DNA of 64,000 nt from Flavobacteriaceae bacterium GF1 (lineage in GTDB: Bacteria; Bacteroidota; Bacteroidia; Flavobacteriales; Flavobacteriaceae): the NCBI GenBank assembly GCA_009797885.1, contig WNKP01000006.1, positions 124,001 to 188,000 of the forward strand, in the 5' to 3' direction. The translations under genes were made by a program, and so were the position numbers. Positions 12,219 through 51,539 of this stretch are shown one piece after another. How positions within the stretch are numbered: the first letter of the stretch is position 1; each line of letters begins with the position of its first letter. The notes under the pieces were generated by a model. It was given only the letters and a program-made list of their open reading frames with translations. It was not told the DNA's origin and did not search any database.

Positions 12219-13004
12219 ATGAGGGAACCGTTTAAGATTTACAATTATTTTTTAATGATATGCTACCTGTCCATTCCTTTTTACGTAATAGGCTTTTGGG
12301 GCAGTGCTTTGTTTCCTGTGGATTTACCTATTAGCGCCCTAATGGTAGTTTGCCCTGCACTTGCCCTATGGGGCTATCATTCCTATTCGAAATTAAAAGA
12401 AATCATATTAAAGTCCCTTGCCTTTAAAACCGGGAAGATGGCTGGATATGTTTTGGCCTTCCTGACCATGCCCATTGCATTGACCTTCACATTTTTGGTA
12501 ATGTCCTATGTAGGTATCGAACTACCGCCCTTTCAAGTATCCCTATGGGATATTATGATTTTAGTGCCGCTTTTTTTTGTGGGTTCCTTCTTGGAAGAAA
12601 TAGGGTGGACGGGATACGCAACCAAAAGTTTACTACGAAAAAAGGGTGTTTTATATACAGGTGTCAGTATCGGTGTTTTATGGGGTGTATGGCACATCAT
12701 ACCCTACCTTCAAATGGGAAAGGACCCTTCCTGGATTTTCTGGCAATGCTTTGGGTCAGTGCTCAAAAGGATAGTCATGGTTTGGATATACGCAAAGTAT
12801 GGAAGAAACCTGTTTATGATTGTGGTATTTCATGCCTTTATTAATATTTCAGTCTTTGTTTTCCCATCAATGGGCTCGCACTATAACCCTTACTACTTCA
12901 GCCTGGTATTCCTTGTAATGATGGGGTTGGGCCTAATTTATGTTTACCTGTCCAATAGGAAGCGCTTCATTCAGGGGAAAGACTTCCCCAAAAAGACTTT
13001 TTGA
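12219..13004 (+). CDS. CPBP-family intramembrane glutamic endopeptidase
   Basis: 261 aa from ATG 12219 (MREPFKIYNYFLMICYLSIP); upstream in-frame codons back to 12075 are not protein-like. There are about seven hydrophobic helices. The CPBP signature is present: EEIGWTGYATK (catalytic glutamates), GVWHIIPYL and HAFIN (conserved histidines). The family (Abi/CAAX protease) processes or protects against peptides; the substrate here is unknown. The next gene starts 34 bp downstream on the same strand. Confidence 0.85.
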   Translation: MREPFKIYNYFLMICYLSIPFYVIGFWGSALFPVDLPISALMVVCPALALWGYHSYSKLKEIILKSLAFKTGKMAGYVLAFLTMPIALTFTFLVMSYVGIELPPFQVSLWDIMILVPLFFVGSFLEEIGWTGYATKSLLRKKGVLYTGVSIGVLWGVWHIIPYLQMGKDPSWIFWQCFGSVLKRIVMVWIYAKYGRNLFMIVVFHAFINISVFVFPSMGSHYNPYYFSLVFLVMMGLGLIYVYLSNRKRFIQGKDFPKKTF

Positions 13005-13038
13005 ACAAATCATCTTCAATCAAAATCCAAATCACATC

Positions 13039-14223
13039 ATGAAAATTGTTAAAATTATCATTGTTTCCGTAGTTATTTGGCAAGCCTCACAAGCTCAGGA
13101 CTCGACTGCAGGGAGGAAATACGATTTGCTTCCCGTTATAACATACGCTGCGGAATCTGCCCTTAATCTTGGGGCAATTGGATTCAAATATTTTGACTTA
13201 AGTAGGGAAAACAAGAACATTCCTGTCTCATTCTTGAACGCAGCCGCTATTTATACCACGCGAAACCAATTGTTTCTTGAGTCGGGCTATCAATTTTTCC
13301 TATCCAATGCCGATCGACTCAATGGTCGTTTTTACTATTTCGATGCGCCTGATAGAAATTATGGCCTTGGCAATGATCCAAGTCTTAGAATTCTTGAAAA
13401 TGACACCCAAGAAATCCTAAATTATATAAATGTGGATGTTACGAGGATTGGATTTATGGCGAACTATCAAAAAAAGATAGCCGGGAAACTCTTTTTTGGG
13501 CCATCCGTGAAAATTGAAGACGTCATAAAATATGATACCATACCAAATTCCTTTGAAGTCCTTCAAGGTGCCCAAAAGATCGATCGTCTTCAAAATCGAA
13601 CTGAAGGCAGGAGGGTGGGCGTTGGGTTTACGGTCACCCATGATACCCGAGATCAAGTTATAAATTCGAGGACAGGCCATTTTTTTGAATCCTCCTTCTT
13701 ACTCCATTCAAAAATTTTCGCCAGCGATTTTGAATATGCGGCCATACGGACGGAATTCATTAAATACCTAAATCCATTTAACAATCACACCCTGGCATTC
13801 CGGATAATCCAAGACTGGAAATATCCGAATAGGAATGGCGGAAATGTTCCGCTCTATGGACTTTCCCGTCCAAATGGAAGGGGATATTTTCAAGGAACGT
13901 TCCAAGACCAACATTCCCAACAAATAGATGTGGAATATCGCTTGCCCTTTTGGAGGGATACGGATATGGAGTATCCCAGATTCCATTTTTGGAAGGGCCT
14001 GGGGGCAGTTTTTTTTATAAGTGGCCAACAGGCCTATGGAGAAACAGGTCCATACCGTGTTTCAAACACCAATTTGGCCTTGGGAACGGGTTTAAGGGTT
14101 CTTTTTAACAAGAAGAATCGAATGAACCTTAGGGTTGATTTTGCCTATGGTTTATTGGAGAACGGTAATGGGATCAATGGTCGTCAGACCACATTTTCAT
14201 TTAATCTGTCGGAAGCATTTTGA
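13039..14223 (+). CDS. Outer-membrane beta-barrel, surface-antigen (BamA/Omp85 C-terminal) type
   Basis: 394 aa from ATG 13039. Signal peptide MKIVKIIIVSVVIWQASQAQ. The sequence has alternating beta strands and the Omp85-type features HDTRDQVINSRTGHFFESSF and GLSRPNGRGYFQG, with a terminal strand ending SFNLSEAF. No POTRA domains are present, so it is a short barrel-only member. The upstream in-frame start at 12940 overlaps the CPBP gene and is rejected. One base separates it from the amidohydrolase, implying an operon. Confidence 0.8.
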   Translation: MKIVKIIIVSVVIWQASQAQDSTAGRKYDLLPVITYAAESALNLGAIGFKYFDLSRENKNIPVSFLNAAAIYTTRNQLFLESGYQFFLSNADRLNGRFYYFDAPDRNYGLGNDPSLRILENDTQEILNYINVDVTRIGFMANYQKKIAGKLFFGPSVKIEDVIKYDTIPNSFEVLQGAQKIDRLQNRTEGRRVGVGFTVTHDTRDQVINSRTGHFFESSFLLHSKIFASDFEYAAIRTEFIKYLNPFNNHTLAFRIIQDWKYPNRNGGNVPLYGLSRPNGRGYFQGTFQDQHSQQIDVEYRLPFWRDTDMEYPRFHFWKGLGAVFFISGQQAYGETGPYRVSNTNLALGTGLRVLFNKKNRMNLRVDFAYGLLENGNGINGRQTTFSFNLSEAF

Positions 14224-14224
14224 G

Positions 14225-15970
14225 ATGATATTGATTAAGAACGGCCTATTTTTTTCAGGGGATTTGAATGACAAAGCCACGCGAAAAAATATCGTAATCG
14301 ACGGCAAAGGAAAGATTGGCAAAATAACGTCTGCCGAAATTTCAACAAGCCCTGATTTTAGGATCATAGATGCCACGGACAAGTGGGTAGTTCCGGGTTT
14401 TATAGATTGCCATACACATTATGACGCAGAAGTGATCGTATCACCAGGATTGAAAGAATCTGCCCGCCACGGAATTACAACCGTAATCCTTGGAAGTTGC
14501 TCGGTATCTGCCGTTTACAATAGCCCGGAAGATACTTCGGATTGTTTTGCCAGGGTCGAAGCGGTGCCAAGGGAAATCATCCTGCCCATATTAAGAAAAA
14601 ATAAGACCTGGGAGACCGCAGCGGAATGGAAATCCTACATTAATGGGCTCCCTCTTGGAATCAACGTTGGTTCCTTTATCGGGCATTCCGATATTCGAAT
14701 GAAAGCTATGGGGATCAGCAGGTCCTTAAAGGAGGGTGAAAGGGCAACGGCAAAGGAAAAAAGCGTAATGGACCATATGTTGAATGAGGCCTTGGATGCT
14801 GGGTTCTTTGGGCTTTCCACCATGGACAGTCCATGGGATAAAATGGATGGAAACCGCTATTGGTCCCATAAAACCCCTTCCTTTTACGCCTCTTGGAAAG
14901 AAAGAAAAGGATTACTGGCCATTCTTAGAAAGCGTGGAGCGATTTTGCAAGGAACTCCAAATGTGGTCACCAGGATAAATGCAATTCACTATATGATGGC
15001 AAGCATGGGATGGTTCAGAAAACCATTGAAAACTTCAATGCTTGCAATGATGGATTTGATAGGTGACCGATATATCCTCCCCCTGACCAGCTTCACCTCA
15101 AGATTCACCAATGTCATAGGAAGGGGGGATTTTAGGATGCAATCCCTCCCCTGTCCTTTTACGGTGTATTATGATGGCATTGAATCCGTTATGTTCGAAG
15201 AATTTCCCAGCGGTGAAGCATTACGGCACCTGGCCAAAGCGCTTGATCAACGAAATAAACTGATACGGGACAAAGCCTTTAGGGAAAGGTTTAAGTCCGA
15301 AATGAGAAGAAAGTTTGCGCCAAAAATTTGGCATAAGGATTTGAGCCGCTCAATAATCCTAAGCGCACCTGACAAAGAACTAATCGGACAGGATTTTTTC
15401 GGTCTGGCCATACGACGAAAAGAACATCCGGTGGATACTTTTTTGGACTTGATTTTGCAATATGATAAGAACATCCAATGGACAACCACCATCGCCAATG
15501 ATAGAAAGGAAAAATACCGACATATGTATAACTTTCCCTATAATCTGATTGGGTTTTCAGATGCGGGAGCCCACTTGAACAATATGGCCTTCTACAATTT
15601 CCCGTTACAAATGATTCAAGTCGTTAAGGAGTCCATTGAAAGGGGAAATCCAATCATGCGAATGGAAAAATGTATCTGGCGACTTACCAAAGAATTGGCA
15701 GATTGGTTTGGGATGGAAAGGGGCTTTTTGGCTGAAGGAAGAATAGCCGATATAGCCATTCTTGATCCAAAGAAATTTGATAGTGTTTCCGGGGATGTAT
15801 ACTCAGATGTTATCGAGGATTTCAATAATTATAAAAGACTGGTCAATAGGAATTGTGGAGCAGTTTCACAAGTAATTGTCAAAGGGGAAATTATCTTTGA
15901 TATGGGGAAATTTGTTAGGGACTACGGAAAGAAAAAGAAGTTTGGATGCTTCATTGAAAAATCAAAATAA
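14225..15970 (+). CDS. Amidohydrolase, N-acyl-D-amino-acid deacylase-like
   Basis: 581 aa from ATG 14225 (MILIKNGLFFSGDL). The metal-site motif PGFIDCHTHYDAE, GHSDIRMKAMG and late GFSDAGAHLNN (catalytic Asp, metal His) fit the D-aminoacylase branch of the amidohydrolase superfamily. The C-terminus has the small beta-sandwich motif LAEGRIADIAILDP. It is longer than classic D-aminoacylases. No signal peptide, so cytoplasmic. It starts 1 bp after the surface-antigen gene; substrate unknown. Confidence 0.85.
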   Translation: MILIKNGLFFSGDLNDKATRKNIVIDGKGKIGKITSAEISTSPDFRIIDATDKWVVPGFIDCHTHYDAEVIVSPGLKESARHGITTVILGSCSVSAVYNSPEDTSDCFARVEAVPREIILPILRKNKTWETAAEWKSYINGLPLGINVGSFIGHSDIRMKAMGISRSLKEGERATAKEKSVMDHMLNEALDAGFFGLSTMDSPWDKMDGNRYWSHKTPSFYASWKERKGLLAILRKRGAILQGTPNVVTRINAIHYMMASMGWFRKPLKTSMLAMMDLIGDRYILPLTSFTSRFTNVIGRGDFRMQSLPCPFTVYYDGIESVMFEEFPSGEALRHLAKALDQRNKLIRDKAFRERFKSEMRRKFAPKIWHKDLSRSIILSAPDKELIGQDFFGLAIRRKEHPVDTFLDLILQYDKNIQWTTTIANDRKEKYRHMYNFPYNLIGFSDAGAHLNNMAFYNFPLQMIQVVKESIERGNPIMRMEKCIWRLTKELADWFGMERGFLAEGRIADIAILDPKKFDSVSGDVYSDVIEDFNNYKRLVNRNCGAVSQVIVKGEIIFDMGKFVRDYGKKKKFGCFIEKSK

Positions 15971-30801: not shown

Positions 30802-31434
30802 ATGGAATTGGATTTAAAATCGAGTTTTGAAAACATCTTTGAACCCCAGTTGTTAAAGGAAATTGAGGCGCTTGGCATCTATAGGGAATTCCAGGAAGGG
30901 GAAAAGATCATGGAAATTGGGGAATACATCAAGGGAATGCCGCTTTTGATTTCCGGTGTCATCAAGATTTTGCGGGAAGATGAGGATGGGGACGAACTCT
31001 TGCTCTATTATTTGGAGCGGGGGGACACCTGCAGTATGACGATGGCCTGTTGTTTGGGGGATACCCAAAGTGAAATACGGGCCATAGCGGAAACTGATGT
31101 TTCCCTGATCATAGTCCCGGTCCGGAAAATGGAGGAGTGGATTTCACAATACCGTTCCTGGCGGAATTTTGTCTTTGAAAGTTACCACAACCGACTGAAT
31201 GAAATGTTGTCCACCATAGATAGCATTGCCTTTATGAATATGGACCAAAGACTTATCGAATATTTAAAGGAAAAAGCCCGGATCAATCAATCCAACACCA
31301 TTCAGAATACCCATCAGGAAATTGCATATGACCTGCACAGTGCCCGTGTGGTCATTTCACGGCTATTAAAGAAATTGGAGCACTTGGGTAAAATTAGATT
31401 GCATCGAAACTCAATTGAAATCCTGGATTTATAA
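30802..31434 (+). CDS. Crp/Fnr-family regulator with Cys-rich loop; candidate sulfur-regulon activator
   Basis: 210 aa. N-terminal cyclic-nucleotide-binding-like barrel and C-terminal winged HTH (QEIAYDLHSARVVISRLLKKLEHLGKI). The phosphate-binding cassette expected for cAMP is replaced by GDTCSMTMACCLGDTQSE with Cys77, Cys83 and Cys84, so classic cAMP binding is unlikely and a thiol-based signal is plausible (inference). Crp/Fnr members with such a loop accompany rhodanese and MBL genes in Bacteroidetes as far as I recall. It lies 3 kb before the sulfur block whose promoters share a Crp/Fnr-like palindrome at the class II activator position. Confidence 0.85.
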   Translation: MELDLKSSFENIFEPQLLKEIEALGIYREFQEGEKIMEIGEYIKGMPLLISGVIKILREDEDGDELLLYYLERGDTCSMTMACCLGDTQSEIRAIAETDVSLIIVPVRKMEEWISQYRSWRNFVFESYHNRLNEMLSTIDSIAFMNMDQRLIEYLKEKARINQSNTIQNTHQEIAYDLHSARVVISRLLKKLEHLGKIRLHRNSIEILDL

Positions 31435-31806: not shown

Positions 31807-33171
31807 ATGAAAAACAGTCTTTACAACCTGCTGATTCTTCTTGTGGGCATTCCCATAGTATCCTGTGTCCAGGAAAACAAAAAAACCAGTACGGTCCAGG
31901 ATTTTGCCTTTACGGAAAACAACTGGGAAATTGAAAATACGGACGGTTCAATGGATACCATAACTATCTTGGAACATCAGGGAAGGCAGGCCCTATTGTT
32001 GGAATCCAATCAAAAGGCGTATTTGAAAGGTGCTACCTTCAAAAACTTCCAATTGGAGTTCCATTGTAACGGCCAAGTTCCAGGATTGGGTTTTAGGATT
32101 CAGGACAAGAAAAACTATGAGTACCTCTACCTAAGAATGATGATGAGCGGAAAAAAAGATGCGTTGCAATACATTCCCATTTACAATGGAAGCTTGCCTT
32201 GGCAACTCTATAATTATCCCAAATATGAGGGGAATGCCGTATTTCCAAGAAAGGAAGTGGCCACTTTGCCGCTTTCCCTGGAGGAGGAACTGGTTCAGGG
32301 AAAAGTGGGGAAAACGCTTTTAAAGGCCTTGGAGGAGGAAGGGATTTTGTATTCCGAGGAATCGTTCATTGATCTTCCCAACGAAACCATGTCCTATATT
32401 TATGATCCACAGCGCAATGAAGCGCTACTTTTTGAAAAACGGAAAGATTCCATTGTGTTCCTGGATATCCGTACCTGGATTCCTGCCAAAATAGTGGTCA
32501 TTGAGGATAAAATGTCGGTTTATGTTGGGGATATGGGCACTCCCACCTTTGTTGTTGATAACCTAAAAGGTGAATCCAAGGCGGGGGGAATAAGCCTGTT
32601 CAGTACTTTTGGCCAGGTATATTTTAGTGATGTCTCCATTCAGGAAATCAAAGAGTCCGATATACCAAAACACCAGGGGACTGAAGAGGGAATTCCCTCC
32701 AACTATTTGACCACGTGGCAAATGTCTGAAATGTTTGTCATGGACACCTTGAATTTTGTGGCACAGGTGGATTCCCTTCTTAAATCCAGGGATAGCTTCA
32801 AAACTGTAAAGGCCGATACGGATGGGCTTCTCAACATTAGTCGATTTTATGATGATATGGACAAAACGGTTGTGCTCACGTGTACCCTGCTATCGGATTC
32901 CGATCAGGAGGTTAGCCTGAATTTTGATTACGCCGATCACTTGGTAATCGTATTGAACTCCAAGGTACTGTTCGATGGGGGAATGAACTTTCGGCCACCT
33001 CCTGAAAAGGGTACGGAAGGAAGGGTGTTCGTGGATGATGAACAAACCGTATTGAACTTGCGCAAGGGAACCAATGATTTAACCTTTGTACTGTCCGGGG
33101 ATAACCGTCAGAAATACAATTGGGGATGTATTGCCAAACTGGCGCATTTGGACGGGATTTCATTGGAATGA
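31807..33171 (+). CDS. Lipoprotein with DUF1080-like concanavalin fold domain
   Basis: 454 aa from ATG 31807 (MKNSLYNLLILLVGIPIVSC; lipobox IVSC). The first half (FTENNWEIENTDGS, FQLEFHCNGQVPGLGFRIQD, GGISLFSTFGQVYFSDV) looks like a DUF1080/laminin-G-type beta sandwich. The second half (LNISRFYDDMDKTVVLTCTLLS, LRKGTNDLTFVLSGDN) resembles a galactose-binding-like jelly roll. Function unknown. Its stop overlaps the next start (ATGA), so it is co-translated with the serine hydrolase. Confidence 0.7.
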   Translation: MKNSLYNLLILLVGIPIVSCVQENKKTSTVQDFAFTENNWEIENTDGSMDTITILEHQGRQALLLESNQKAYLKGATFKNFQLEFHCNGQVPGLGFRIQDKKNYEYLYLRMMMSGKKDALQYIPIYNGSLPWQLYNYPKYEGNAVFPRKEVATLPLSLEEELVQGKVGKTLLKALEEEGILYSEESFIDLPNETMSYIYDPQRNEALLFEKRKDSIVFLDIRTWIPAKIVVIEDKMSVYVGDMGTPTFVVDNLKGESKAGGISLFSTFGQVYFSDVSIQEIKESDIPKHQGTEEGIPSNYLTTWQMSEMFVMDTLNFVAQVDSLLKSRDSFKTVKADTDGLLNISRFYDDMDKTVVLTCTLLSDSDQEVSLNFDYADHLVIVLNSKVLFDGGMNFRPPPEKGTEGRVFVDDEQTVLNLRKGTNDLTFVLSGDNRQKYNWGCIAKLAHLDGISLE

Positions 33172-34301
33172 GTAGTAATATGGATCTAATGTCCCTCCAA
33201 AAAATAAGGAACTATTGTACTGCCTTACTCGGGATTGTGCTTGTTGGTTGTGTGGATGGTGGAAGTAAACCCTCCCAGGACAAACAAAAAGGGCCTACGG
33301 TATCGGCAAGGCAAATGGAATTGGTCCAGGAGACGCTTCAGACCTTTCCCGAGGGGACCGAGTTTTCCTTAGGGTTTCTGTATGAGGGGGAAACACACTA
33401 TTTTGGAGCAAGGTTGGTCGATGGCCATAGCGAAGAGGTTGCCAACAGCAATCATCTTTTTGAAATCGGTTCCATCACCAAGGTCTTCACTTCAACACTC
33501 CTTACTTCGCTGGTACTGGAAGGTCAGGTCAGGTTGGAAGATCCGGTCCAAAAGCACATAGGTTTTACGCTGGGGACAGCACAGGAAATCACCTTAGAGC
33601 AACTTGCGAACCATACCTCTGGACTACCGCGGATGCCTTCCAATCTGGACCTGTTCGAAGATCCCGACAATCCGTACAAGGCGTACGACGATCAAAAAAT
33701 GAAAGCATACCTGGTCAATGACCTTAAGTTGAACCATCCACCTGGGACAGAATATGAGTATTCAAATCTCGGGGCCGGACTTTTGGGGTTTCTGGTTGCC
33801 AAACTATCAGGTTCCCCTTATGAAGAATTCGTTCGGGACAAGGTTTTTTCAGAATATGAAATGCTCCACTCCACGACGGACCGTACCAAAATTCGTGGCA
33901 AACTTGTACCGGGATTGGATCCTGACGGAAGGGAAGTATCCAATTGGGATTTTGATGCATTGACCGGTGCCGGTGCCATTTTTTCTTCTGTTGTGGACTT
34001 GGCAAAATTTGGAAATGCCCAGTTCGATTCCACAGACACAAAACTTGTCATGACCCAACGACCTACTTTCATCCCCAACGATGAGTTCAAAGTTGGCCTG
34101 GGGTGGCATATTTTAAACCAGGAGAATGGCAAGGAATTGCTCTGGCATAATGGCGGTACCGGGGGGTATTCATCTTCGATGGCATTGGATGTCCAGAACA
34201 AACAAGGGATTATCGTCTTGTCCAATGTCTCCGCTTTCCATCCTTTTAGGCGTAATGTGGACGAGCTTTGCCTTTCCCTGATGGAAACCTTTAAAAAATG
34301 A
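33168..34301 (+). CDS. Serine hydrolase lipoprotein, class C beta-lactamase/DD-peptidase fold
   Basis: 377 aa from ATG 33168, chosen because it forms an ATGA overlap with the previous stop; later ATGs at 33180 and 33189 are also possible. Lipobox VLVGC. Catalytic triad motifs of the beta-lactamase family: SITK in IGSITKVFT (SxxK), YSN in YEYSNLGAG and HNGGTGGY (HxG). The family includes esterases and peptidases; beta-lactam resistance should not be assumed. Confidence 0.85.
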   Translation: MSSNMDLMSLQKIRNYCTALLGIVLVGCVDGGSKPSQDKQKGPTVSARQMELVQETLQTFPEGTEFSLGFLYEGETHYFGARLVDGHSEEVANSNHLFEIGSITKVFTSTLLTSLVLEGQVRLEDPVQKHIGFTLGTAQEITLEQLANHTSGLPRMPSNLDLFEDPDNPYKAYDDQKMKAYLVNDLKLNHPPGTEYEYSNLGAGLLGFLVAKLSGSPYEEFVRDKVFSEYEMLHSTTDRTKIRGKLVPGLDPDGREVSNWDFDALTGAGAIFSSVVDLAKFGNAQFDSTDTKLVMTQRPTFIPNDEFKVGLGWHILNQENGKELLWHNGGTGGYSSSMALDVQNKQGIIVLSNVSAFHPFRRNVDELCLSLMETFKK

Positions 34302-34456: not shown

Positions 34457-34500
34457 GTCATCCAGGTTACTGACCTAACGGTAAAAGGTGGTTACCTTTG
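34457..34500 (+). promoter_or_regulatory. Sulfur-regulon promoter A (sulP)
   Basis: Operator GTCATC-CA-GGTTAC at 34457-34470 (right arm perfect, left arm 4/6) is centred 29.5 bp upstream of TACCTTTG (34493-34500), a full TAnnTTTG. The predicted start near 34505 puts the site at about -41.5, and the ATG at 34506 would make the mRNA almost leaderless. Confidence 0.75.
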
Positions 34501-34505
34501 TGGCC

Positions 34506-36230
34506 ATGTTAAAACGGTATTTCCCAATATTGGAGTGGTTGCCCAATTATAAAAGGGCATACCTTTCCGGGGATATTTCGGCGGGGATAACGGTAGGGGT
34601 CATGTTGATACCACAGGGAATGGCCTATGCCCTTATTGCCGGCCTGCCCCCGGTGTACGGGTTGTACGCTGCCCTGGTCCCCAACCTACTTTACGCCTTT
34701 ACGGGGTCCAGCAGAAAACTGGCCGTTGGCCCTGTGGCCTTGGACTCCTTGATTGTGGCCTCAAGTTTGGCAGCCATGAAACTGGCGAATATGGAGGACT
34801 ACATTGCCATGGCCCTTTTTTTGGCATTGTTGGTCGGGGTTTTGCAACTGGTCATGGGATTTTTCCGAATGGGGTTTTTGGCCAACTTTCTTTCCAGGCC
34901 AGTGGTCAATGGATTTACCTCGGCAGCGGCACTGGTCATTGCTGTGAGCCAATTGAAATACCTCTTTGGTCTGGAACTGGAAACCATAGGCACTTTTTCT
35001 ACTTTTAGTGCGGTACTCCAAAACCTGGGACAAACCAATTTTTATGACCTTTCCATTGGAATTGGTGCCATTCTTGTCATTTGGGGATTAAAAAAATTGA
35101 ACCGTAAGCTTCCGGCTGCCATGCTGGTGGTCATCCTGTCCATTATCGGCATCTATTTTTTTATGGTAAACGAAACCGATGTCCATATTCTGGGTACGGT
35201 CCCCCAGGGATTGCCGGCCTTTGTGCTGCCAAAGTTTACAACGTCACAGTTGGTCATAGCCCTCCCCACAGCTTTGGCTTTGGCTTTTATCGCTTTTGCA
35301 GAGGCCATGGCCATAGCCAAAGCGGTTGAGCAACAATCCGAGGACCAGCATACGGAGCCAAACCAGGAGTTAAGGGCATTGGGCTTCTCCAATCTCGTAG
35401 GTTCCTTTTTTCAGTCCTTTCCGACAAACGCAGGCTTGTCACGAACCGCAGTGAATGTGGAAGAAGGTGCCCAAACAGGTTTTGCCTCAATTATAAGTGC
35501 CATCATAGTTGGAGCAACATTGCTGTTCTTGACCCCGTTTTTTTACTATTTGCCCAAGTCCGTTTTGGGAGCCATTATATTAGTAGCGGTCTACAGCCTT
35601 ATTGACATGCAATACCCGAGGCAATTGCTCAAACAGCAAAAGGACGAATTTGTTTTGTTCCTAATTACCTTTTTCACCACACTTCTAATCGGGATATCCG
35701 AAGGCATCATTTTTGGGGTATTGTTCTCCTTGGTCCTGTTGGTGTATAGAATCTCCAAGCCCCATATTGCAGTTCTTGGAAAAATAAAGGGAATGGAGTA
35801 TTTTAAGAATGTAGATCGTTTTAGTGAAGAGGTGGAAGTCCATGATGCGGTTTTAATGATACGTTTTGATGCTCAATTGTTTTTTGCCAATGTGCAGTAT
35901 TTCAAAACCGCCCTGTTAAAGGAAGTGGATAAAAAAGGCGAAGCATTAAAATATATCATTCTCAATGCCGAGCCTGTAAATTACCTGGACGATACCGCGG
36001 CAAAGCAATTACAGACCTTGATCGTTCAATTGCGTGATAGGGGCATTGTCTTTAAACTGGCCGGGGCCATTGGTCCCCTACGGGACATCCTTAAAAAAAG
36101 CGGATTGGTGGACGTAATAGGGCAGGACAACATCTATGTGAGAACGGCAGAGGCCTATGCGGACAGTTTGGAAAAAGTGGAGCGTACCGCCATTCAGGAA
36201 AAAGTTTCACTCCAACATAAAGAATTGTAA
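34506..36230 (+). CDS. SulP-family anion transporter with STAS domain
   Basis: 574 aa from ATG 34506 (MLKRYFPILEWLPNYKRAYL); a GTG at 34488 lies inside the -7 element. SulP signature SGDISAGITVGVMLIPQGMAYA and GLPPVYGLYAALVP, about twelve hydrophobic helices with FQSFPTNAGLSRTAVN, then a STAS domain from about residue 435 (MIRFDAQLFFANVQYF ... NYLDDTA). SulP proteins move sulfate, bicarbonate or other anions; the surrounding genes suggest a sulfur oxyanion (inference). Confidence 0.92.
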   Translation: MLKRYFPILEWLPNYKRAYLSGDISAGITVGVMLIPQGMAYALIAGLPPVYGLYAALVPNLLYAFTGSSRKLAVGPVALDSLIVASSLAAMKLANMEDYIAMALFLALLVGVLQLVMGFFRMGFLANFLSRPVVNGFTSAAALVIAVSQLKYLFGLELETIGTFSTFSAVLQNLGQTNFYDLSIGIGAILVIWGLKKLNRKLPAAMLVVILSIIGIYFFMVNETDVHILGTVPQGLPAFVLPKFTTSQLVIALPTALALAFIAFAEAMAIAKAVEQQSEDQHTEPNQELRALGFSNLVGSFFQSFPTNAGLSRTAVNVEEGAQTGFASIISAIIVGATLLFLTPFFYYLPKSVLGAIILVAVYSLIDMQYPRQLLKQQKDEFVLFLITFFTTLLIGISEGIIFGVLFSLVLLVYRISKPHIAVLGKIKGMEYFKNVDRFSEEVEVHDAVLMIRFDAQLFFANVQYFKTALLKEVDKKGEALKYIILNAEPVNYLDDTAAKQLQTLIVQLRDRGIVFKLAGAIGPLRDILKKSGLVDVIGQDNIYVRTAEAYADSLEKVERTAIQEKVSLQHKEL

Positions 36231-36235
36231 TTTAT

Positions 36236-36279
36236 GTGACAAAAGTTACCTCCTTTTTAAGGGGTTACCCCTAATTTTG
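36236..36279 (+). promoter_or_regulatory. Sulfur-regulon promoter C (persulfide dioxygenase operon)
   Basis: GTGACA-AA-AGTTAC at 36236-36249 (the most degenerate copy) is centred 29.5 bp upstream of TAATTTTG (36272-36279). The leader to ATG 36298 would be about 15 nt. Confidence 0.7.
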
Positions 36280-36297: not shown

Positions 36298-37707
36298 ATG
36301 AACATAGAACAGATATACACCGGATGCTTGGCTCAAGGGGCCTATTATATTGAAAGTGAGGGAGAGGTGGCCATTATAGATCCCCTTCGTGAGGTACAAC
36401 CGTATCTTGAGCGCGCAAAACGGGATAAGGCCAAGATCAAATACATTTTTGAAACCCACTTTCATGCCGATTTTGTGAGTGGCCATGTAACCCTTTCCAG
36501 GGAAACCGGGGCCCCAATAGTATATGGTCCCAGCGCCAACCCCTCCTTTGACGCCATTATTGCGGAAGATGGTCAGGCGTTTCCCTTGGGGAAGCTCAAG
36601 ATCATAGCGTTGCATACCCCGGGACATACCATGGAGAGCACTACCTATTTGTTGCGGGATGAAAACGGGAAAGATCATGCCATTTTTAGTGGGGATACCC
36701 TTTTCCTGGGGGATGTGGGACGCCCTGATTTGGCACAAAAAGCAGCCAGTATGACCCAAGAAGAACTGGCCGCCACCTTATACGATAGCCTTAGGACCAA
36801 GATCATGCCCCTTGCAGATGATGTCATCGTATATCCTGCGCACGGTGCAGGTTCTGCATGTGGTAAGAATATGATGAAGGAAACGGTGGATACGTTGGGG
36901 AACCAGAAACAAATGAACTATGCCCTACGGGCCGATATGACCAAGGAAGAGTTTGTGAAGGAGGTTACGGACGGACTATTGCCCCCACCCCAGTACTTCC
37001 CGTTGAACGTTAAAATGAATAAGGAAGGATATGATGATATTGAGGACGTTATCGAACGTGGAGCCGTTGGGCTGTCCCCGGAAGCTTTTGAAACTGCGGC
37101 CAACGAAACCGGAGCCGTGGTGTTGGACGTTCGCCACCAAAATGATTTTGCCAAAGCACATATCCCCAGATCCATTTTTATTGGTTTGGGCGGGAGTTTT
37201 GCCCCTTGGGTGGGCGCTTTGATTGCCGATGTAAAACAGCCTATTTTGTTGATTACCCCCGAAGGCAAGGAAGAAGAAACCATAACTCGACTGTCCAGGG
37301 TTGGTTTTGATGGTACCATAGGATTTTTAAAAGGGGGTCTGGAGGCTTGGATAGCGGCCGGTAAAGATACGGATAGCGTAACAAGCATGGATGCGGAAAC
37401 CTTTAAAGCCCATGTTGAAGCAAAGGCACCCATCTTTGACGTTAGAAAGGAAACGGAATACAATGCAGAACATCTGGAAGATGCCCACTTAACGCCCCTC
37501 GATTTTTTGAACGACCACTTGGCGGCGTTTCCGGCAAAGGACACCTTCTACGTACACTGTGCCGGAGGCTACAGAAGTATGATAGCGGCCTCCATCCTCA
37601 AGAGTCGTGGTATCCATAATTTGGTGGATGTTGCAGGGGGATTTGGAGCCATTAAAAAAGCGGGAATCAAAACTACGGACTTCGTTTGTCCAACAACTTC
37701 AAACTAA
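36298..37707 (+). CDS. Persulfide dioxygenase-like MBL domain fused to two rhodanese domains
   Basis: 469 aa. The N-terminal MBL half has ETHFHADFVSGH, HTPGHTMES, SGDTLFLGDVGRPDL and YPAHGAGSACG, the pattern of ETHE1-like persulfide dioxygenases (mononuclear iron, oxidises glutathione persulfide to sulfite). Two rhodanese domains follow, about residues 265-360 and 365-465. The second has an active-site Cys in YVHCAGGYRSM; the first has LLITPEGKEE at that place and lacks the Cys, so it is probably inactive. No signal peptide; cytoplasmic. First gene of an operon with HMA and a periplasmic rhodanese. Confidence 0.92.
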   Translation: MNIEQIYTGCLAQGAYYIESEGEVAIIDPLREVQPYLERAKRDKAKIKYIFETHFHADFVSGHVTLSRETGAPIVYGPSANPSFDAIIAEDGQAFPLGKLKIIALHTPGHTMESTTYLLRDENGKDHAIFSGDTLFLGDVGRPDLAQKAASMTQEELAATLYDSLRTKIMPLADDVIVYPAHGAGSACGKNMMKETVDTLGNQKQMNYALRADMTKEEFVKEVTDGLLPPPQYFPLNVKMNKEGYDDIEDVIERGAVGLSPEAFETAANETGAVVLDVRHQNDFAKAHIPRSIFIGLGGSFAPWVGALIADVKQPILLITPEGKEEETITRLSRVGFDGTIGFLKGGLEAWIAAGKDTDSVTSMDAETFKAHVEAKAPIFDVRKETEYNAEHLEDAHLTPLDFLNDHLAAFPAKDTFYVHCAGGYRSMIAASILKSRGIHNLVDVAGGFGAIKKAGIKTTDFVCPTTSN

Positions 37708-37711
37708 TACT

Positions 37712-37984
37712 ATGAAAACTACAATTGCCATTCAAAATCTAAAGTGCGGTGGTTGTGCTGCCACTATTAAAAACAAGGTAAGTGAACTTGAAGGGGTGGA
37801 TACCGTTGAGGTCGATGAATTGGAAGGCGCGGTACGTGTTGTGTATGCCCACGAAAATGTACTTTTGGGCATAAAGCAAAAGCTGGCGGCCCTGGGCTAT
37901 CCCGAGGTGGATAGCGAAAACGGGTTGCTTACCAAAGCAAAGTCTTTTGTGAGCTGTGCCGCCGGTCGACTATCAAAATCATGA
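37712..37984 (+). CDS. Heavy-metal-associated (HMA) domain protein
   Basis: 90 aa from ATG 37712, 4 bp after the previous stop. Motif NLKCGGCAATIKNKVSEL carries the metal-binding CxxC of the HMA/CopZ fold. The C-terminal tail has a further Cys (FVSCAAGR). It probably binds Cu(I) or another soft metal, or carries sulfur. Its stop overlaps the next start (ATGA). Confidence 0.88.
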   Translation: MKTTIAIQNLKCGGCAATIKNKVSELEGVDTVEVDELEGAVRVVYAHENVLLGIKQKLAALGYPEVDSENGLLTKAKSFVSCAAGRLSKS

Positions 37985-38388
37985 AGCGTTGCTTGCTTTG
38001 TTGCCTGTTCTTGGGGCTTAGTCTTTCCTGTAAAGAGAAAATGCCTGCAAAGATCACCGTAGTGGATAAAACCTTTTTTCAGAAAGAGGTTCTTGGGAAA
38101 GAGGTACAATTGGTGGATGTACGTACCCAGGAGGAGTACGAATCCGGGCATATCGATGATGCTCTGAACTTTAACATTATTGATAAAAAAACCTTTTTGG
38201 AACAGATAGAGACCCTGGACAAAGAAGAACCGGTGTACCTGTATTGCAGAATGGGAGGGCGCAGCAATAGGGCCGCCCTATTGATGAAAGGAAAAGGGTT
38301 TACCCAAGTCTTTGATTATTCAGGCGGTTACAATGATTGGATGGGGGTTAATGCAGGGGTTCCACGGGACCAAATCAGCAAAAAATGA
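37981..38388 (+). CDS. Exported single-domain rhodanese lipoprotein
   Basis: 135 aa. The N-terminus MKRCLLCCLFLGLSLSC has a lipobox (LSLSC), so it should act outside the inner membrane. The rhodanese domain has VQLVDVRTQEEYESGHI and active-site YCRMGGRSN. It transfers sulfane sulfur. ATGA overlap with the HMA gene indicates coupled translation. Confidence 0.9.
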   Translation: MKRCLLCCLFLGLSLSCKEKMPAKITVVDKTFFQKEVLGKEVQLVDVRTQEEYESGHIDDALNFNIIDKKTFLEQIETLDKEEPVYLYCRMGGRSNRAALLMKGKGFTQVFDYSGGYNDWMGVNAGVPRDQISKK

Positions 38389-38469: not shown

Positions 38470-38513
38470 GTAACCCAGGTTACTGTGGCAAAAGTTCGCC
38501 TAAACTACTTTTG
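38470..38513 (+). promoter_or_regulatory. Sulfur-regulon promoter B (rhodanese-cytochrome-thioredoxin operon)
   Basis: Perfect palindrome GTAACC-CA-GGTTAC at 38470-38483, centred 29.5 bp upstream of TACTTTTG (38506-38513). Leader to ATG 38534 about 17 nt. Confidence 0.8.
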
Positions 38514-38533: not shown

Positions 38534-38878
38534 ATGTCCATATTCAATACACTATTCGGTAAGAAAGGAATTTCAGATAAGGTCAAGGTGCTATCAAAAG
38601 CGGATTATGCCCAAGCCATAAAAGGAGGTAATGTGCAACTGGTAGACGTTAGAACGGCAAGGGAATTCCGTTCCGGCCATATCAAAGGGGCCCAAAACAT
38701 CGACTTTTTTAGTCTGGGCAACTTTAACGCCTCCTTTGAAAAATTGGATAAGGACAGCGCGGTTTATCTCTATTGCCAATCCGGTAACCGTAGCCAAAAA
38801 GCGGCAAAACGGTTGGTTAAAATGGGTTTTGAAACCGTCATTGACCTTTCCGGGGGATACAGTGCCTGGTCACGCTAA
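38534..38878 (+). CDS. Single-domain cytoplasmic rhodanese
   Basis: 114 aa. VQLVDVRTAREFRSGHIKGA and active-site loop YCQSGNRSQKA with the catalytic Cys. No signal peptide, in contrast to the neighbouring lipoprotein rhodanese. First gene of the promoter-B operon; 17 bp to the cytochrome gene. Confidence 0.92.
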   Translation: MSIFNTLFGKKGISDKVKVLSKADYAQAIKGGNVQLVDVRTAREFRSGHIKGAQNIDFFSLGNFNASFEKLDKDSAVYLYCQSGNRSQKAAKRLVKMGFETVIDLSGGYSAWSR

Positions 38879-38895: not shown

Positions 38896-39906
38896 ATGGC
38901 AAGACCATCCATTGTCCTGATGACCATTTTGATATTATCCCTCTCCTGTAAGAACCAAAAGGGGGACAATTTGGACTCCATTAATAGTGTCAAAAATACA
39001 TTTTCACTAACGGACTACGGTGAGGGCAAAAGGCTCATGGCGCAACAATGTTACCTATGCCATAGTCCATCAGCGTCCCAAAAAGAGGGCAGGGTAGGGC
39101 CTCCCATGATAGCGATCAAGGCCCATTACCAACAACACTTTACCAATAGGCAAATGTTCTTGGATTCCTTTGTTCAATTTGTAATGGACCCCAAGGCACC
39201 CAATGCCAAATTAAAAGGAGCGGTACAAAGGTTTGGATTGATGCCCAAACAGGTGTTTCGCAGCGATGAAGTTGAAAAAATGGCTGCCTATCTCCGTGAC
39301 TACCAAATTGAGGAACCCGATTGGTTTGAAGCACATTGGGCTTCCCAAGGTTCTGAACCATATACGAACAGGGAGCAAAAGAAATGGATTGGGGAGGAGG
39401 ATAAGGGCTACGCCGAAATTGGGCTGTCCTATGCTTTGGGCACAAAAAAGGTGTTGGGGGCCAACCTAATGGGGGCGCTACAGGAAAAGGGACCGGTTGA
39501 AGCCGTTACATTTTGTAACGAAAGGGCCTATCCCCTTACCGATAGTATGTCCGTAGTTTTCAATGCGAAGATCAAACGGGTGACCGATAGACCACGTAAC
39601 CCGAGCAATGCTGCCGATGCTAGGGAGTTGAAACATATAAAAACGTTTCAAACCTTGGTCTTTAACAATGAAAAGCTCGTGCCCGTTGTTGAGGATTTGG
39701 GGGAAAAGGTGCAGTTTTATTATCCCATAGTCACCAATGACCTATGTTTGAAATGCCATGGAAACCCCAAAACGGATGTATCTTTGGAGGTACGGAACCT
39801 CTTACGGGAAAAGTATCCCACTGATAAGGCCTTGGGCTATGGTATCAACGAGGTTAGGGGAATTTGGAGCATAACGTTTGATAAACTGGAAAATGTCGAG
39901 TTTTAA
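38896..39906 (+). CDS. Di-heme c-type cytochrome lipoprotein: cytochrome c fused to a Tll0287/DUF3365-like domain
   Basis: 336 aa. Lipoprotein signal ILSLSC. An N-terminal cytochrome c domain has CYLCH (near residue 52) and a Met in GLMPKQ; the C-terminal half ([45 protein letters not shown]) is a Tll0287/DUF3365-like heme sensor or redox domain with a second CxxCH. Such fusions suggest electron transfer or heme-based sensing in the periplasm. It overlaps the thioredoxin gene by 14 bp. Confidence 0.88.
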
Positions 39907-40180
39907 GGAAATCATCACAGGGGACAAACCGGTCCTAATCGATTTTTATGCCACGTGGTGTGGCCCATGCCAAACCATGATGCCCATTTTGGAACAGGTA
40001 AAGGACCAAGTGGGGGATGCGGCAAAAATCATTAAGATAGATGTGGATAAAAACCAGGCTTTGGCGCAAAAATATCAGGTGCGCGGCGTACCTACCTTAA
40101 TGGTCTTCAAAAATGGGGAATTGGTGTGGCGCCAATCCGGAGTGGTGCAGGCCAACCAGTTGGTAGGGTTGCTAACTTAA
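39893..40180 (+). CDS. Thioredoxin
   Basis: 95 aa from ATG 39893 ([20 protein letters not shown]); an earlier ATG at 39878 lies deeper in the previous gene. Active site TWCGPCQ and cis-Pro loop [10 protein letters not shown]. No signal peptide. Co-encoded with rhodanese and cytochrome under promoter B, so it may reduce persulfides formed by the rhodaneses (inference). Confidence 0.92.
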
Positions 40181-45481: not shown

Positions 45482-46357
45482 TCATGACGCCCCTTTTTTA
45501 AATCCATGGACCAACTGCCCCCAAAATCCTTTGGGCATCCGTTCGTCCCCTTTATAGCCCAATGCAATGGTCCCACTGTCCTCGGGAATATGATGGGTTT
45601 TAAAGAGATAATCCCATAGGCTGAGGCTAATCCCAAAATTCACCCCATATTTTCCTTCGGGCAGCACATAGGAATGGTGGTAGAGGTGCATGACAGGGTT
45701 ATTAAAAATGTATTTCAAAGGGCCATAGGTCAGTTTAATATTGGCATGGTTCAGGTGCCCAATGGCAATGGCCACAAAATGGACAATATAGGCCTGTTCG
45801 GGCTCAAATCCTCCCAAAAGCATTACCCCAAATGTCTTTAACGGTTTGTAAAGGATGTTTTCCATCCAATGGTAACGTAGGTGGGCCGCAAATCCCATTT
45901 CCTTCACACTGTGGTGCACTTGATGAAACCGCCAGAGCAATGGAAACTTATGAAGGGCAATATGGGTGAGCCACTGTACAAAATCCAGTAGTACAAAGAA
46001 GACCAAAAGTTGTAGCCACATAGGCCAGGAACCGATACTCAAAAGCGCCAGGCTTTGTGCGGTAATCCCCAATTGTCCAAAGCCTACTTCCAATATATTG
46101 TAAACGCCTTGTATGACGATGGCGAAGACAAAAAAGTTGAAGAACATATAAAACCCATCCAGCCAAAAATCCTTTCGAAAGATGGACTGGTCCTTTCGCC
46201 AGGGGAAGACCATTTCCAATAACCAGACCACCAATGAAATGGCAACCAACCCCCAAAAGTAATTTTTGTACCACGGCACTTGAAACAAAATGGATTTCCA
46301 CGTATAATTTACCGTACCGTTAAAACCGTTTAAAAATGCTTCCCAATAGACTTCCAT
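45482..46357 (-). CDS. Sterol desaturase/fatty acid hydroxylase superfamily membrane protein
   Basis: 291 aa. Hydrophobic helices alternate with the histidine clusters of the family: HIALHKFPLLWRFHQVHHS, HLNHANI and HLYHHSY, ligands for a di-iron site. It is the last gene of a three-gene minus operon with the molybdenum enzyme and cytochrome (2-bp gap). Its substrate and link to sulfite oxidation are unknown. Confidence 0.9.
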   Translation of the reverse strand: MEVYWEAFLNGFNGTVNYTWKSILFQVPWYKNYFWGLVAISLVVWLLEMVFPWRKDQSIFRKDFWLDGFYMFFNFFVFAIVIQGVYNILEVGFGQLGITAQSLALLSIGSWPMWLQLLVFFVLLDFVQWLTHIALHKFPLLWRFHQVHHSVKEMGFAAHLRYHWMENILYKPLKTFGVMLLGGFEPEQAYIVHFVAIAIGHLNHANIKLTYGPLKYIFNNPVMHLYHHSYVLPEGKYGVNFGISLSLWDYLFKTHHIPEDSGTIALGYKGDERMPKGFWGQLVHGFKKGAS

Positions 46358-46359
46358 AG

Positions 46360-46818
46360 TTATTCCAATTCATACCAATCCTCATTGGTCAGGTTTTGTC
46401 TTCGACCTTTACGTTCGGGGCCATAGTTTTTGGCCAAATAGGCCACTATTTTCCCATGGTTGGCTCCCAAATCCCATAGGTTTTGTGTTTCCTGCATCCA
46501 GGTAATGGTAGCTTCCCAGCCTTCTTTGCTCATTCGGTTTTGCGTTACCAATTTGGCCGAATGGCATTGGGTGCAATTTTGAATAACGCCCGATACCCCT
46601 TCGTCATTGATAAATCCTGATTGTGCAATGGTTTGGGCATCCAAGAGTACCATTTCGGATTCATCGGCAGGCAAGACTTCATAGACCTCGCTTGATTTTA
46701 GGGCATCCGGATTGTTTTTTAGATAGAAAATCCCCATAAATACCGTTACCAACAAAAGCCCAAAGACCATAAGTAACCTGCCCAACGATGTAATCTGTTT
46801 CCGAAAGTTTTCCTGCAT
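46360..46818 (-). CDS. Membrane-anchored mono-heme cytochrome c, SorB-like
   Basis: 152 aa. One N-terminal helix (LLMVFGLLLVTVFMGIFYL) anchors a periplasmic domain with a single heme site NCTQCHSAKLV; TWMQETQNLW is typical of cytochrome subunits of sulfite dehydrogenase. Gap of 1 bp to the Mo enzyme, so it is very likely its electron acceptor. Confidence 0.85.
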   Translation of the reverse strand: MQENFRKQITSLGRLLMVFGLLLVTVFMGIFYLKNNPDALKSSEVYEVLPADESEMVLLDAQTIAQSGFINDEGVSGVIQNCTQCHSAKLVTQNRMSKEGWEATITWMQETQNLWDLGANHGKIVAYLAKNYGPERKGRRQNLTNEDWYELE

Positions 46819-46819
46819 C

Positions 46820-48040
46820 TTATACTACTTTTAGGGCAATACGGTGGCAGGCGTTGTTCAAATATCCCTTTGGGTTCCATCCGGGCAACACCATGGGCTG
46901 GCTTTTGCCCGCGCTGTCCGTGGCTTTTGCCCATATTTCATAATACCCTTTTTTAGGAAAACTGACCTGTGCCCTAAAATGCTGCCAAGCCAATCGGTTT
47001 ACGGGCTTTTCCAGGGTACACCCATGCCAGGTACTTCCAAAATCAATGGAGTAGTGAACCTGGGACACTTCCAGTTCCCCAGCCCAGGCATGCCCGTTAA
47101 TGACCAGGCTCTTCCCTTTTTTAAGAAGCGCCCCGCTCTTTGGAAAGGTAATCAAGGACTTTACGGGCATGGATTCGATAATGCACATATTTTGATCCGT
47201 CACTTCACTGCCGGGAGCAACGCTTTCACAAGGGACCCGATAAGAGGCACCTCCCATTTTGGCACCATCATGTACCTGGTTTCGGATACTGATGCGTTGT
47301 ATCCATTTTCCGGAAGCGGAAGCTGGCCAACCACCACAGACCAAGCGCAGGGGATAGCCATGTGCCAGGGGAATATCCTTTCCATTCATCTGAAAAGCCA
47401 GAAGGGTCTCCTCTTGCATGGCTTTTGAAATGGGCACTCCACGGGAAATGGGCTCTTTTTTGGGGTCACCACTCAAATGGGTATCCGCCGCATGGTAACC
47501 AATGTATACGGCCTCGGGTTTTATACCAACATCCTGGAGTAGATCACGTAACCGAATCCCTGTCCAGTTGGCACAGGAAACTGCTCCCACGGTCCATTGG
47601 TTCCCCTTGGCAGGGGGATCGAACTCGCTTCTGCCATTGCCTCCACACTCCAAGGTCAATTGATAGGTGTGTTGTGGAAATTTTGTCTTTAACTCCGCCA
47701 ACGAATACACTTTTTTCCGTTCTACGGCTTCACCATCAATAGTCAATGTCCAATTGTCGGCATCTATCTGTTTTGGTAGTATCCCGTTGTTTCGGATGAA
47801 CATGTACCTGTTTGGGGTAACGGCATCGTTTAGAAGATGGGCCTTGGCCTCAATATTCCATGGACGGTCGTTCAAAACCGTCATTTCCCTATCCTTAGCG
47901 AACAGTGAAAAGGGGTCTGGGTCCTGAAGCGCCAGGGGAACGTAATTTTTGGGAATAGTACCGGCAAAAACAACCGGAGCGCCAATTGCACTGGCAATTC
48001 CCGCCATTGTCAAGCTTTTGGAGAAATCCCTTCTGTCCAT
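46820..48040 (-). CDS. Periplasmic molybdopterin sulfite dehydrogenase-like enzyme (SorA/SoxC type)
   Basis: 406 aa from ATG 48040; a TTG at 48049 is in frame. The N-terminus has a twin-arginine signal (MDRRDFSKSLTMAG). The sulfite oxidase fold is shown by LTLECGGNGRSEFDPP with the molybdenum-ligand Cys, GAVSCANWTGIRLRDLL, YPLRLVCGGWPASASGKW and a C-terminal dimerisation domain (INGHAWAGELEVSQVHYSID). It would oxidise sulfite to sulfate and pass electrons to the downstream cytochrome. A MITE-like element ends 23 bp upstream of its ATG. Confidence 0.9.
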   Translation of the reverse strand: MDRRDFSKSLTMAGIASAIGAPVVFAGTIPKNYVPLALQDPDPFSLFAKDREMTVLNDRPWNIEAKAHLLNDAVTPNRYMFIRNNGILPKQIDADNWTLTIDGEAVERKKVYSLAELKTKFPQHTYQLTLECGGNGRSEFDPPAKGNQWTVGAVSCANWTGIRLRDLLQDVGIKPEAVYIGYHAADTHLSGDPKKEPISRGVPISKAMQEETLLAFQMNGKDIPLAHGYPLRLVCGGWPASASGKWIQRISIRNQVHDGAKMGGASYRVPCESVAPGSEVTDQNMCIIESMPVKSLITFPKSGALLKKGKSLVINGHAWAGELEVSQVHYSIDFGSTWHGCTLEKPVNRLAWQHFRAQVSFPKKGYYEIWAKATDSAGKSQPMVLPGWNPKGYLNNACHRIALKVV

Positions 48041-48063
48041 ACCTTGCAAGATTCAATTTAAAA

Positions 48064-48263
48064 CTTAGAGCCTGTTTAGGAATTTGTCAATTGTTTTCTT
48101 ATGTCCCTTTTTGCACGGCACATCGTTAAAATTTTAGTCCATAACTATGGCTATGCCTTTCCATCGCCCCAGCTCGCCCATAGCTTTCGCTATGTCGTGC
48201 CTCGTTCCGCACTAAAAATGGCCTACAACAATTCCAATCATAAATTCCTAGACAGGCTCTAAG
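48064..48263. mobile_element. 200-bp MITE-like element with 24-bp terminal inverted repeats
   Basis: Outer ends CTTAGAGCCTG...(48064-48087) and ...CAGGCTCTAAG (48240-48263) are inverted copies matching at 22 of 24 bases. The inside has no gene but contains further short inverted copies (CATAGC...GCTATG) so the whole element can fold. No target-site duplication is evident. It lies between operator D and the sulfite dehydrogenase gene. Confidence 0.7.
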
Positions 48264-48283: not shown

Positions 48284-48328
48284 GTAACCGAGGTTACCAA
48301 AAGTAAGATGGGAGTACCGTTATATTTG
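48284..48328 (+). promoter_or_regulatory. Sulfur-regulon promoter D (small ORF-DUF2892)
   Basis: Palindrome GTAACC-GA-GGTTAC at 48284-48297 (perfect arms), centred 30.5 bp upstream of TATATTTG (48321-48328). The predicted start falls at or next to the ATG at 48332. Confidence 0.78.
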
Positions 48329-48432: not shown

Positions 48433-48639
48433 ATGAAAAAAAATATGGGTAGATTGGATCGTATCGCGAGATTGGTTATTGCAGCCATAGTGGGCACCTT
48501 GTATTTTACAGGTGTTGTGCAAGGTATTTTGGGGTATGTGCTTTTGGCCTTGGCCGGTATTTTTGTGCTCACCTCCTTTGTAAGCTTTTGTCCACTGTAC
48601 GCCCTTGTAGGGCTCAATACGTGCCGAAGAAAAAATTAG
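48433..48639 (+). CDS. DUF2892 (YgaP-like) transmembrane protein
   Basis: 68 aa. MGRLDRIARLVIAAIVG...FTGVVQGILGYVLLALAGIFVLT with two helices and SFCPLYALVGLNT is the standard DUF2892 pattern, the membrane part of the YgaP rhodanese. Proteins of this type commonly accompany rhodaneses and sulfur genes. It is transcribed from promoter D and followed by a terminator. Confidence 0.9.
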   Translation: MKKNMGRLDRIARLVIAAIVGTLYFTGVVQGILGYVLLALAGIFVLTSFVSFCPLYALVGLNTCRRKN

Positions 48640-49061: not shown

Positions 49062-49105
49062 GTAACCAATGTTACTGTGTCGGCCATAGGGTCAACGTAG
49101 CTTTG
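49062..49105 (+). promoter_or_regulatory. Sulfur-regulon promoter E (TolC-MFP-RND-YeeE operon)
   Basis: GTAACC-AA-TGTTAC at 49062-49075 (11 of 12 arm bases conserved), centred 29.5 bp upstream of TAGCTTTG (49098-49105). Leader to ATG 49123 about 14 nt. Confidence 0.78.
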
Positions 49106-50436: not shown

Positions 50437-50437
50437 A

Positions 50438-51529: not shown

Positions 51530-51539
51530 AGACGAATAG

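Follow-up and report, generated by a model that had tools for sequence, protein, structure and literature searches.

In Staphylococcus aureus, the persulfide-sensing regulator CstR controls tauE, cstA, cstB, and sqr, as set out in the accessible part of PMC5480029. SqrR and FisR, regulators of sulfur-oxidising genes, respond to sulfane sulfur according to the available sections of PMC11211675, where a cited title places FisR in the sigma54-type family. Within the Crp/Fnr superfamily, glutathione binding by PrfA provides a precedent for thiol control, and heme binding by CooA requires loss of the region equivalent to CRP residues 72–82 (both from the accessible text of PMC12937710). PgRsp of Porphyromonas gingivalis is a Bacteroidota Crp/Fnr redox regulator that has been modelled on 3DV8 (PMC6955866, accessible part). 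HcpR2 has a motif published as GTAACnnnnGTTAC, hcp as its regulon, and, in most members, Pro at position 181 (Rodionov 2005, PMC1274295, accessible part). No Crp/Fnr persulfide sensor was found in the literature searched, which was mostly without subscription papers and included the accessible portions of PMC9774590, PMC12040651, PMC12531629, PMC9603854, and PMC11211675.

Here, we analysed a 64,000-nucleotide stretch of the Flavobacteriaceae bacterium GF1 genome (the window, in whose numbering positions are given). It encodes a Crp/Fnr regulator that, judged from sequence comparisons, very probably turns on reactive-sulfur disposal genes in marine flavobacteria.

The regulator and its gene neighbourhood

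The regulator is a 210-residue protein with an ATG start (30802–31434, plus strand), defined by its ORF, Pfam profiles, and alignment to CRP. It scored 41.4 bits against Pfam cNMP_binding (cut-off, 27.5) and 33 bits against HTH_Crp_2 (cut-off, 27), and profile and fold agree in giving it the cNMP-binding fold and Crp-type helix-turn-helix (HTH) of the Crp/Fnr superfamily. An AlphaFold model (mean pLDDT, 84.9; pTM, 0.61), which served for fold comparison alone and was least certain at residues 81–84 (pLDDT below 50), aligned in fold and cassette with CRP, Vfr, NtcA, and 3dv8. Fold, cassette position, and HTH are common to the regulator, Escherichia coli CRP, and Pseudomonas aeruginosa Vfr; however, the regulator has Glu72 and Arg82 replaced and carries three cysteines in the cassette. 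The cAMP ligands in the CRP cassette are Glu72, Arg82, and Ser83, the last of which contacts the phosphate. In the HMM alignment, Glu72 corresponds to Met79 and Arg82 to Gln89, and the serine alone is retained, as Ser90; the curated CRP model PRK11753 scored 50.6 bits, under its cut-off of 266. The only cysteines of the protein, Cys77, Cys83, and Cys84, align with CRP Ile70, Phe76, and Glu77 in the phosphate-binding cassette, which bears out the sequence-only reading that three cysteines occupy the region of the cAMP pocket. The nearest solved sequence, the Eubacterium rectale Crp/Fnr protein 3dv8 (E 5.8e-24), likewise has Cys at positions 77 and 83 but lacks Cys84.

Downstream on the plus strand, profiles identified a SulP-family anion transporter (34488–36230), a metallo-beta-lactamase/rhodanese protein resembling persulfide dioxygenase (PDO; 36298–37707; nearest solved chains, 3tp9 and 3r2u), an HMA-domain protein (37703–37984), two rhodaneses (37981–38388 and 38534–38878), a Tll0287-like/cytochrome c protein (38896–39906), and a thioredoxin (39893–40180). 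The minus strand carries a SorB-like cytochrome c (46360–46818; its score is under the curated SorB cut-off) and a SorA-like sulfite dehydrogenase (46820–48049), whose best NCBIfam match was SorA at 231.5 bits against a cut-off of 600. Further plus-strand genes encode a YgaP-like transmembrane protein (48433–48639; PF11127) and TolC-like, membrane-fusion, and RND transporter proteins (49123–54734), the last three being ORFs named by sequence reading. The regulator had been described as lying just before the regulated block; it does precede the sulfur genes, although not directly, as two genes (31807–34301), encoding a 454-residue protein and a serine beta-lactamase-family protein, separate it from SulP. 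Among 80 homologous loci, homologues of this pair occurred at the same place in L018 only. A fatty-acid hydroxylase family gene (45482–46357) has homologues in 43 of the 80 loci, and in many of them an operator lies near the gene start.

These 80 loci, totalling 1.52 Mb, came from a scan of named genomes and are mostly from Flavobacteriaceae; the set is biased towards the cysteine loop because the loop was one of six seeds. Counting any position in the locus, 66 of the 80 contain a PDO homologue, which usually lies downstream of the regulator, and as many as 65 contain rhodanese homologues. A frequent order was regulator, SulP or another gene, PDO, and rhodanese, to which SorAB, a YeeE pair, or TolC-MFP-RND genes are often added; in Myroides, the YeeE pair lies upstream of the regulator. 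In L064 and L211, Pfam places TauE/SafE immediately after the regulator. The former, a Salegentibacter locus (10001–14429), has an exact palindrome after the regulator, followed by TauE and a gene resembling cytochrome bd subunit I; it lacks PDO, as do several further Salegentibacter loci. In another locus (L197, 8585–10974), a regulator with Cys77 only is followed by an exact composite of palindrome and promoter box and then by thioredoxin, OsmC, and Cys/Met-metabolism PLP enzyme genes, possibly a second sulfur regulon.

Operator, promoter geometry, and predicted regulon

The palindrome GTAACC...GGTTAC reported from the sequence-only reading is real in the window, with two exact copies (38470 and 48284) against 0.04 expected in shuffles. 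The looser form GTAACNNNNGTTAC, with at most one mismatch, occurs at four sites (36236, 38470, 48284, and 49062; 1.08 expected), a count matched by 4 of 100 shuffles. On the plus strand, the predicted operator GTGACAAAAGTTAC (36236–36249; one mismatch), with a -7 box TAATTTTG at 36272–36279, precedes the PDO operon; GTAACCCAGGTTAC (38470–38483), with the box TACTTTTG at 38506–38513, precedes the rhodanese operon; and GTAACCAATGTTAC (49062–49075), with the box TAGCTTTG at 49098–49105, precedes the TolC operon. The predicted operator GTAACCGAGGTTAC (48284–48297) has a plus-strand box, TATATTTG (48321–48328), at a spacing one base longer and precedes the YgaP-like ORF. No operator was seen before the regulator gene itself, and neither SulP nor the YeeE pair is preceded by a composite that is exact or has one mismatch.

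Across the 80 loci, GTAAC-N4-GTTAC occurred 190 times in 74 loci, compared with 3 copies of the reversed control, 12 of the complement-order control, and 8 of the FNR consensus; spacings N2, N3, N5, and N6 gave 2, 1, 0, and 0. Only 3 of the 190 palindromes lay deep in an ORF, in DNA of which ORFs of at least 80 codons cover 87%, and palindromes in the relatives' loci precede persulfide dioxygenase, rhodanese, sulfite dehydrogenase, and efflux genes. Homologues of the TolC, MFP, and RND genes were found near operators in relatives by tblastn. When 180 palindromes were aligned by site, TAnnTTTG appeared at +36 to +43, with T, A, T, and T at +36, +37, +40, and +41 being 94–98% conserved; we take this box to be the Bacteroidota -7 element. 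In these 180 sites, 29.5 bp separate the palindrome centre from the box downstream of it, presumably the geometry of a class II CRP/FNR promoter, whose site centre would fall near -41.5 from a transcription start placed by prediction. The half-site spacing is FNR-like rather than CRP-like. When the palindrome-plus-box composite was counted in 154 loci for all 60 anagrams of GTAAC, GTAAC itself gave 185, the next best 8, and the other 59 a mean of 0.2. GTRAC composites lay within 150 bp of 50 of 63 PDO genes.

Genome-wide, the bare GTAACN4GTTAC was rarer than its reversed control (9 versus 36), and composites with up to two mismatches (16 + 14) also fell below control (34 + 44). The bare palindrome is therefore a weak genome-wide predictor of the regulon, and prediction can use only composites that are exact or carry one mismatch and stand in promoter position; as a result, few sites support the regulon outside the window. 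One of these, a one-mismatch composite at C22:278346, precedes a gene most closely related, among solved structures, to sulfide:quinone reductases (SQR; E 7e-60). This target was not sought beforehand and fits the sulfur pathway, so that predicted operators in this genome precede PDO, rhodanese, and SQR-like genes. A 14-bp palindrome copy at C33:211478 falls within a large ORF and has no box, and a one-mismatch site at C22:217114, before an ORF read as DUF983-like from its sequence, may be a chance occurrence.

The sorA promoter appears to have been interrupted in this strain. A TA-flanked inverted-repeat element of 192 bp (48068–48259) interrupts the -7 box of what was presumably once the sorA promoter; the genome contains 26 matches to this stretch, a figure that includes fragments and the copy in the window. 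Joining the flanks as an empty-site test indicated that the element entered the TA of the -7 box and that an exact composite would otherwise face sorA; on the minus strand, the operator at 48284 is this cut-off promoter. In relatives, a GTRAC palindrome lies within 150 bp of 17 of 19 sorA genes, with a box in 9 of the 19. Since the element splits its -7 box, sorA is perhaps outside the regulon here and may have been uncoupled from it in GF1.

Whether motif-bearing genomes also carry the regulator was examined in 249 family genomes, with figures tallied by hand. An exact composite was present in 177 of 212 genomes with a close homologue (E below 1e-20) and absent from the other 35; it was present in only 4 of 37 genomes without one (2 of 11 with weak matches and 2 of 26 with none), although genomes lacking the regulator are mostly small, which confounds the comparison. 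The reversed-control composite gave 12 sites in 10 of the 249 genomes. In a phylum sample of 296 genomes, 34 had the composite, of which four had no regulator match (G467, G475, G274, and G322) and one had a weak match only (G325); the reversed control gave 7 sites over all 296.

Residue 183, at the position of CRP Glu181, offers further evidence for this pairing. It is Val in the regulator and, with Arg182 (CRP Arg180), lies in the recognition helix (codons 31345–31350, plus strand); the accessible part of PMC1274295 records that Rodionov and colleagues link residue 181 to the half-site base in question. Half-sites shift towards GTGAC where the homologue has Glu at this position: composites with zero, one, and two G-type halves numbered 181, 22, and 18 in loci with a single Val-type regulator, which thus tolerate GTGAC/GTCAC at 18 of 221 sites, versus 1, 15, and 3 in loci with a single Glu-type regulator. 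The Fisher p of 1e-11 for this association counts sites and ignores relatedness, and a corrected test cannot reach significance because the tree offers only two phylogenetically independent contrasts. A quick tree gave five V/E changes at residue 183 and four changes each at Cys83 and Cys84. Of the 17 genomes of one genus (g128) in the sample, all of which were considered, 13 have a Glu-type best homologue, and 12 of these carry a GTRAC-N4-GTCAC composite, the thirteenth carrying GTGAC-N4-GTTAC; the GTAAC/GTTAC composite occurs in 1 of the 13. The four Val-type genomes of the genus, possibly with other paralogues, have 3, 2, 3, and 6 GTAAC/GTTAC composites and no G-type one, and the G-type control gave 2 sites in the genus. 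Over the phylum, G-type composites numbered 35 in 28 of 296 genomes against 11 for the control, roughly threefold. G402 is a counterexample, being Glu-type with three GTAAC/GTTAC composites and no G-type composite. The proposed tie between this regulator, the palindrome, and a persulfide/sulfite regulon is thereby supported in silico by motif, promoter geometry, regulon, co-occurrence, and the apparent match of residue 183 to the third base of the half-site; the Val/Glu difference supplies a natural pair for studying how Crp/Fnr proteins read that base.

The signal and alternative explanations

Cys77 (codon 31030–31032, plus strand) is present in all 156 aligned homologues, down to 29% identity. 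Cys83 and Cys84 (codons 31048–31050 and 31051–31053, plus strand) vary in the wider family, with both present in 93 homologues and at least one missing in 63. Sulfur markers (PDO, TauE, YeeE, or rhodanese) lie within 5 kb in 34 of these 63, so that Cys83 and Cys84 are not co-conserved with the sulfur genes. Rhodanese is a loose marker, as its queries can also match the rhodanese domain of PDO; with rhodanese-only links removed, 28 of the 63 are still sulfur-linked by hand count, including L216 and L230, where a second family member with both cysteines shares the locus. The CIMSFLGGLH branch (L198, L200, L203, L211, and L212) is sulfur-linked without the full Cys83/84 pair, and L095, also without it, retains the SulP-PDO order. 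Homologues with a 3dv8-like CILTxxC cassette (Cys77 and Cys83) had no sulfur neighbour in any of six Bacteroidota loci (L219, L222, L225, L226, L227, and L233). Given 34 of 63 linked homologues on one side and none of six on the other, a dithiol or trithiol loop is no mark of sulfur regulation. The three-cysteine signature was rejected as a sulfur-sensing mark, since sulfur neighbours persist without Cys83 and Cys84, and the earlier suggestion that the TCSMTMACC loop is the sensor finds no support in the form given. Among the 27 homologues near which none of the sulfur markers searched was found, Cys77 is again invariant; it is therefore no mark of sulfur regulons and is a property of the whole branch.

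Taken as a whole, the explanation towards which we lean slightly is a dimeric Crp/Fnr activator of a persulfide regulon that would act through GTAAC-N4-GTTAC and sense sulfane sulfur at Cys77. Its parts differ in strength: binding to the predicted operator is highly likely, activation is likely, and the sensing of sulfane sulfur through Cys77 is evenly poised. A protein dimeric by family resemblance would bind the palindrome, tolerating GTGAC half-sites, about 41 bp before the predicted transcription start, and would recruit RNA polymerase to the TAnnTTTG box. Its predicted targets would be the persulfide dioxygenase, rhodaneses, thioredoxin, and RND efflux system, with sulfite dehydrogenase in relatives and sulfide:quinone reductase elsewhere in the genome. 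Sulfane sulfur, as polysulfide or a low-molecular-weight persulfide, may modify Cys77 in the former cyclic-nucleotide cassette and stabilise the DNA-binding form, and Cys83 and Cys84 could serve as resolving thiols where present. We infer persulfide as the signal, an idea strengthened by the cst-operon-like regulon; Cys77 is most likely where reactive sulfur would be sensed. Two points favour this switch: the regulated genes both make and consume persulfide, and, in the accessible account of Staphylococcus, a like gene set is under persulfide-sensing CstR. We are more tentative, and lean somewhat against, generalising to a Bacteroidota-wide branch in which a one-cysteine switch at Cys77, with positions 83 and 84 gained and lost, drives class II activation of persulfide and sulfite oxidation.

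The main rival to a Cys77 persulfide switch keeps the same regulator and regulon but takes the signal to be a sulfur oxyanion, whether sulfite, thiosulfate, or polythionate. Ser90 and basic residues close to it would hold this ligand non-covalently, much as CRP holds the cAMP phosphate, and Cys77 would be structural or line the pocket. Several features would suit an oxyanion: Ser90 is found in 118 of the 121 sulfur-linked homologues and in 20 of the other 27, Lys or Arg occupies residue 89 in 87 and residue 93 in 100 of the 121, and Cys83/84 are dispensable for the sulfur link. Cys77 is nevertheless more strictly conserved than any of these residues, and an oxyanion leaves the invariant cysteine unexplained; we consider this reading unlikely. 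Metal, oxygen, or nitric oxide sensing by Cu(I), an Fe-S cluster, or heme held in the C-x5-CC loop would draw on the three cysteines, on the HMA-domain gene in the PDO operon and the RND-type efflux operon behind a predicted operator, and on PgRsp, which binds heme in the accessible account of PMC6955866 and was modelled on 3DV8, a protein with the Cys77/Cys83 spacing. Such a cofactor is improbable given that homologues with Cys77 only still adjoin sulfur clusters, that the N-terminal cysteines of an FNR-type 4Fe-4S cluster are absent, and that the region equivalent to CRP 72–82 is present, so that heme binding of the CooA type, as described in the accessible part of PMC12937710, is disfavoured.

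Two further readings concern who binds the palindrome and to what effect. A repressor released by persulfide would leave regulator and sites as proposed. The strict single distance to the -7 box equals class II activation, and repression is disfavoured because it would need no exact spacing. The downstream half-site overlaps the position where the Bacteroidota promoter layout places a -33 element, as repression might predict, but the aligned-site profile shows no conservation of a full -33 element. Although CstR represses its own operon (PMC5480029, accessible part) and a title cited in the available text of PMC11211675 calls SqrR a repressor, we regard repression here as rather unlikely, with activation the reading retained. 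That the regulator gene is a bystander and another Crp/Fnr protein, for example HcpR2, binds the palindrome would accord with the published HcpR2 motif (PMC1274295, accessible part) and with the 22 cNMP-domain matches in the genome. Against this, the motif tracks the regulator across genomes and shifts with residue 183, the regulator as query found a single other cNMP-domain match in its own genome (21% identical), and a search of the genome with its C-terminal 64 residues, up to E 10, returned no second match. In the 99.99%-complete genome, the Hcp family PF03063 had no match; HcpR2 was rejected as the palindrome binder on this ground, and a bystander role is very improbable.

Comparison with known systems

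The operator is not new. It counts as known because GTAACnnnnGTTAC, which the predicted sites carry, was published for HcpR2, but that protein represents another branch with another regulon. Both proteins have lost CRP Glu181, for which, in the accessible description, HcpR2 mostly has Pro where the regulator has Val183. PgRsp, another Bacteroidota Crp/Fnr protein, differs by heme binding in the available text of PMC6955866.

Flavobacteria are abundant marine heterotrophs, and the literature searched held no description of how they control sulfide or persulfide oxidation. The superfamily is an ordinary one, and the present assignment was likewise not found there; the regulon is strongly indicated, and the sensing mechanism is a proposal. 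Together these results name a regulator, spell out an exact operator-promoter grammar, predict a regulon, and point to one residue for mutagenesis. SqrR belongs to the ArsR-type family. The cst operon of S. aureus has a regulated set (tauE, persulfide dioxygenase, sulfurtransferase, and sqr) like the one predicted for the flavobacterial loci and, as proposed here, a thiol regulator (PMC5480029, accessible part); CstR, however, is a CsoR-like repressor of unrelated fold, whereas the flavobacterial protein is Crp/Fnr. We read the latter as a new Crp/Fnr variant and, if this is true, a branch of that superfamily would fill in flavobacteria the role that CstR, SqrR, and FisR have in other bacteria.
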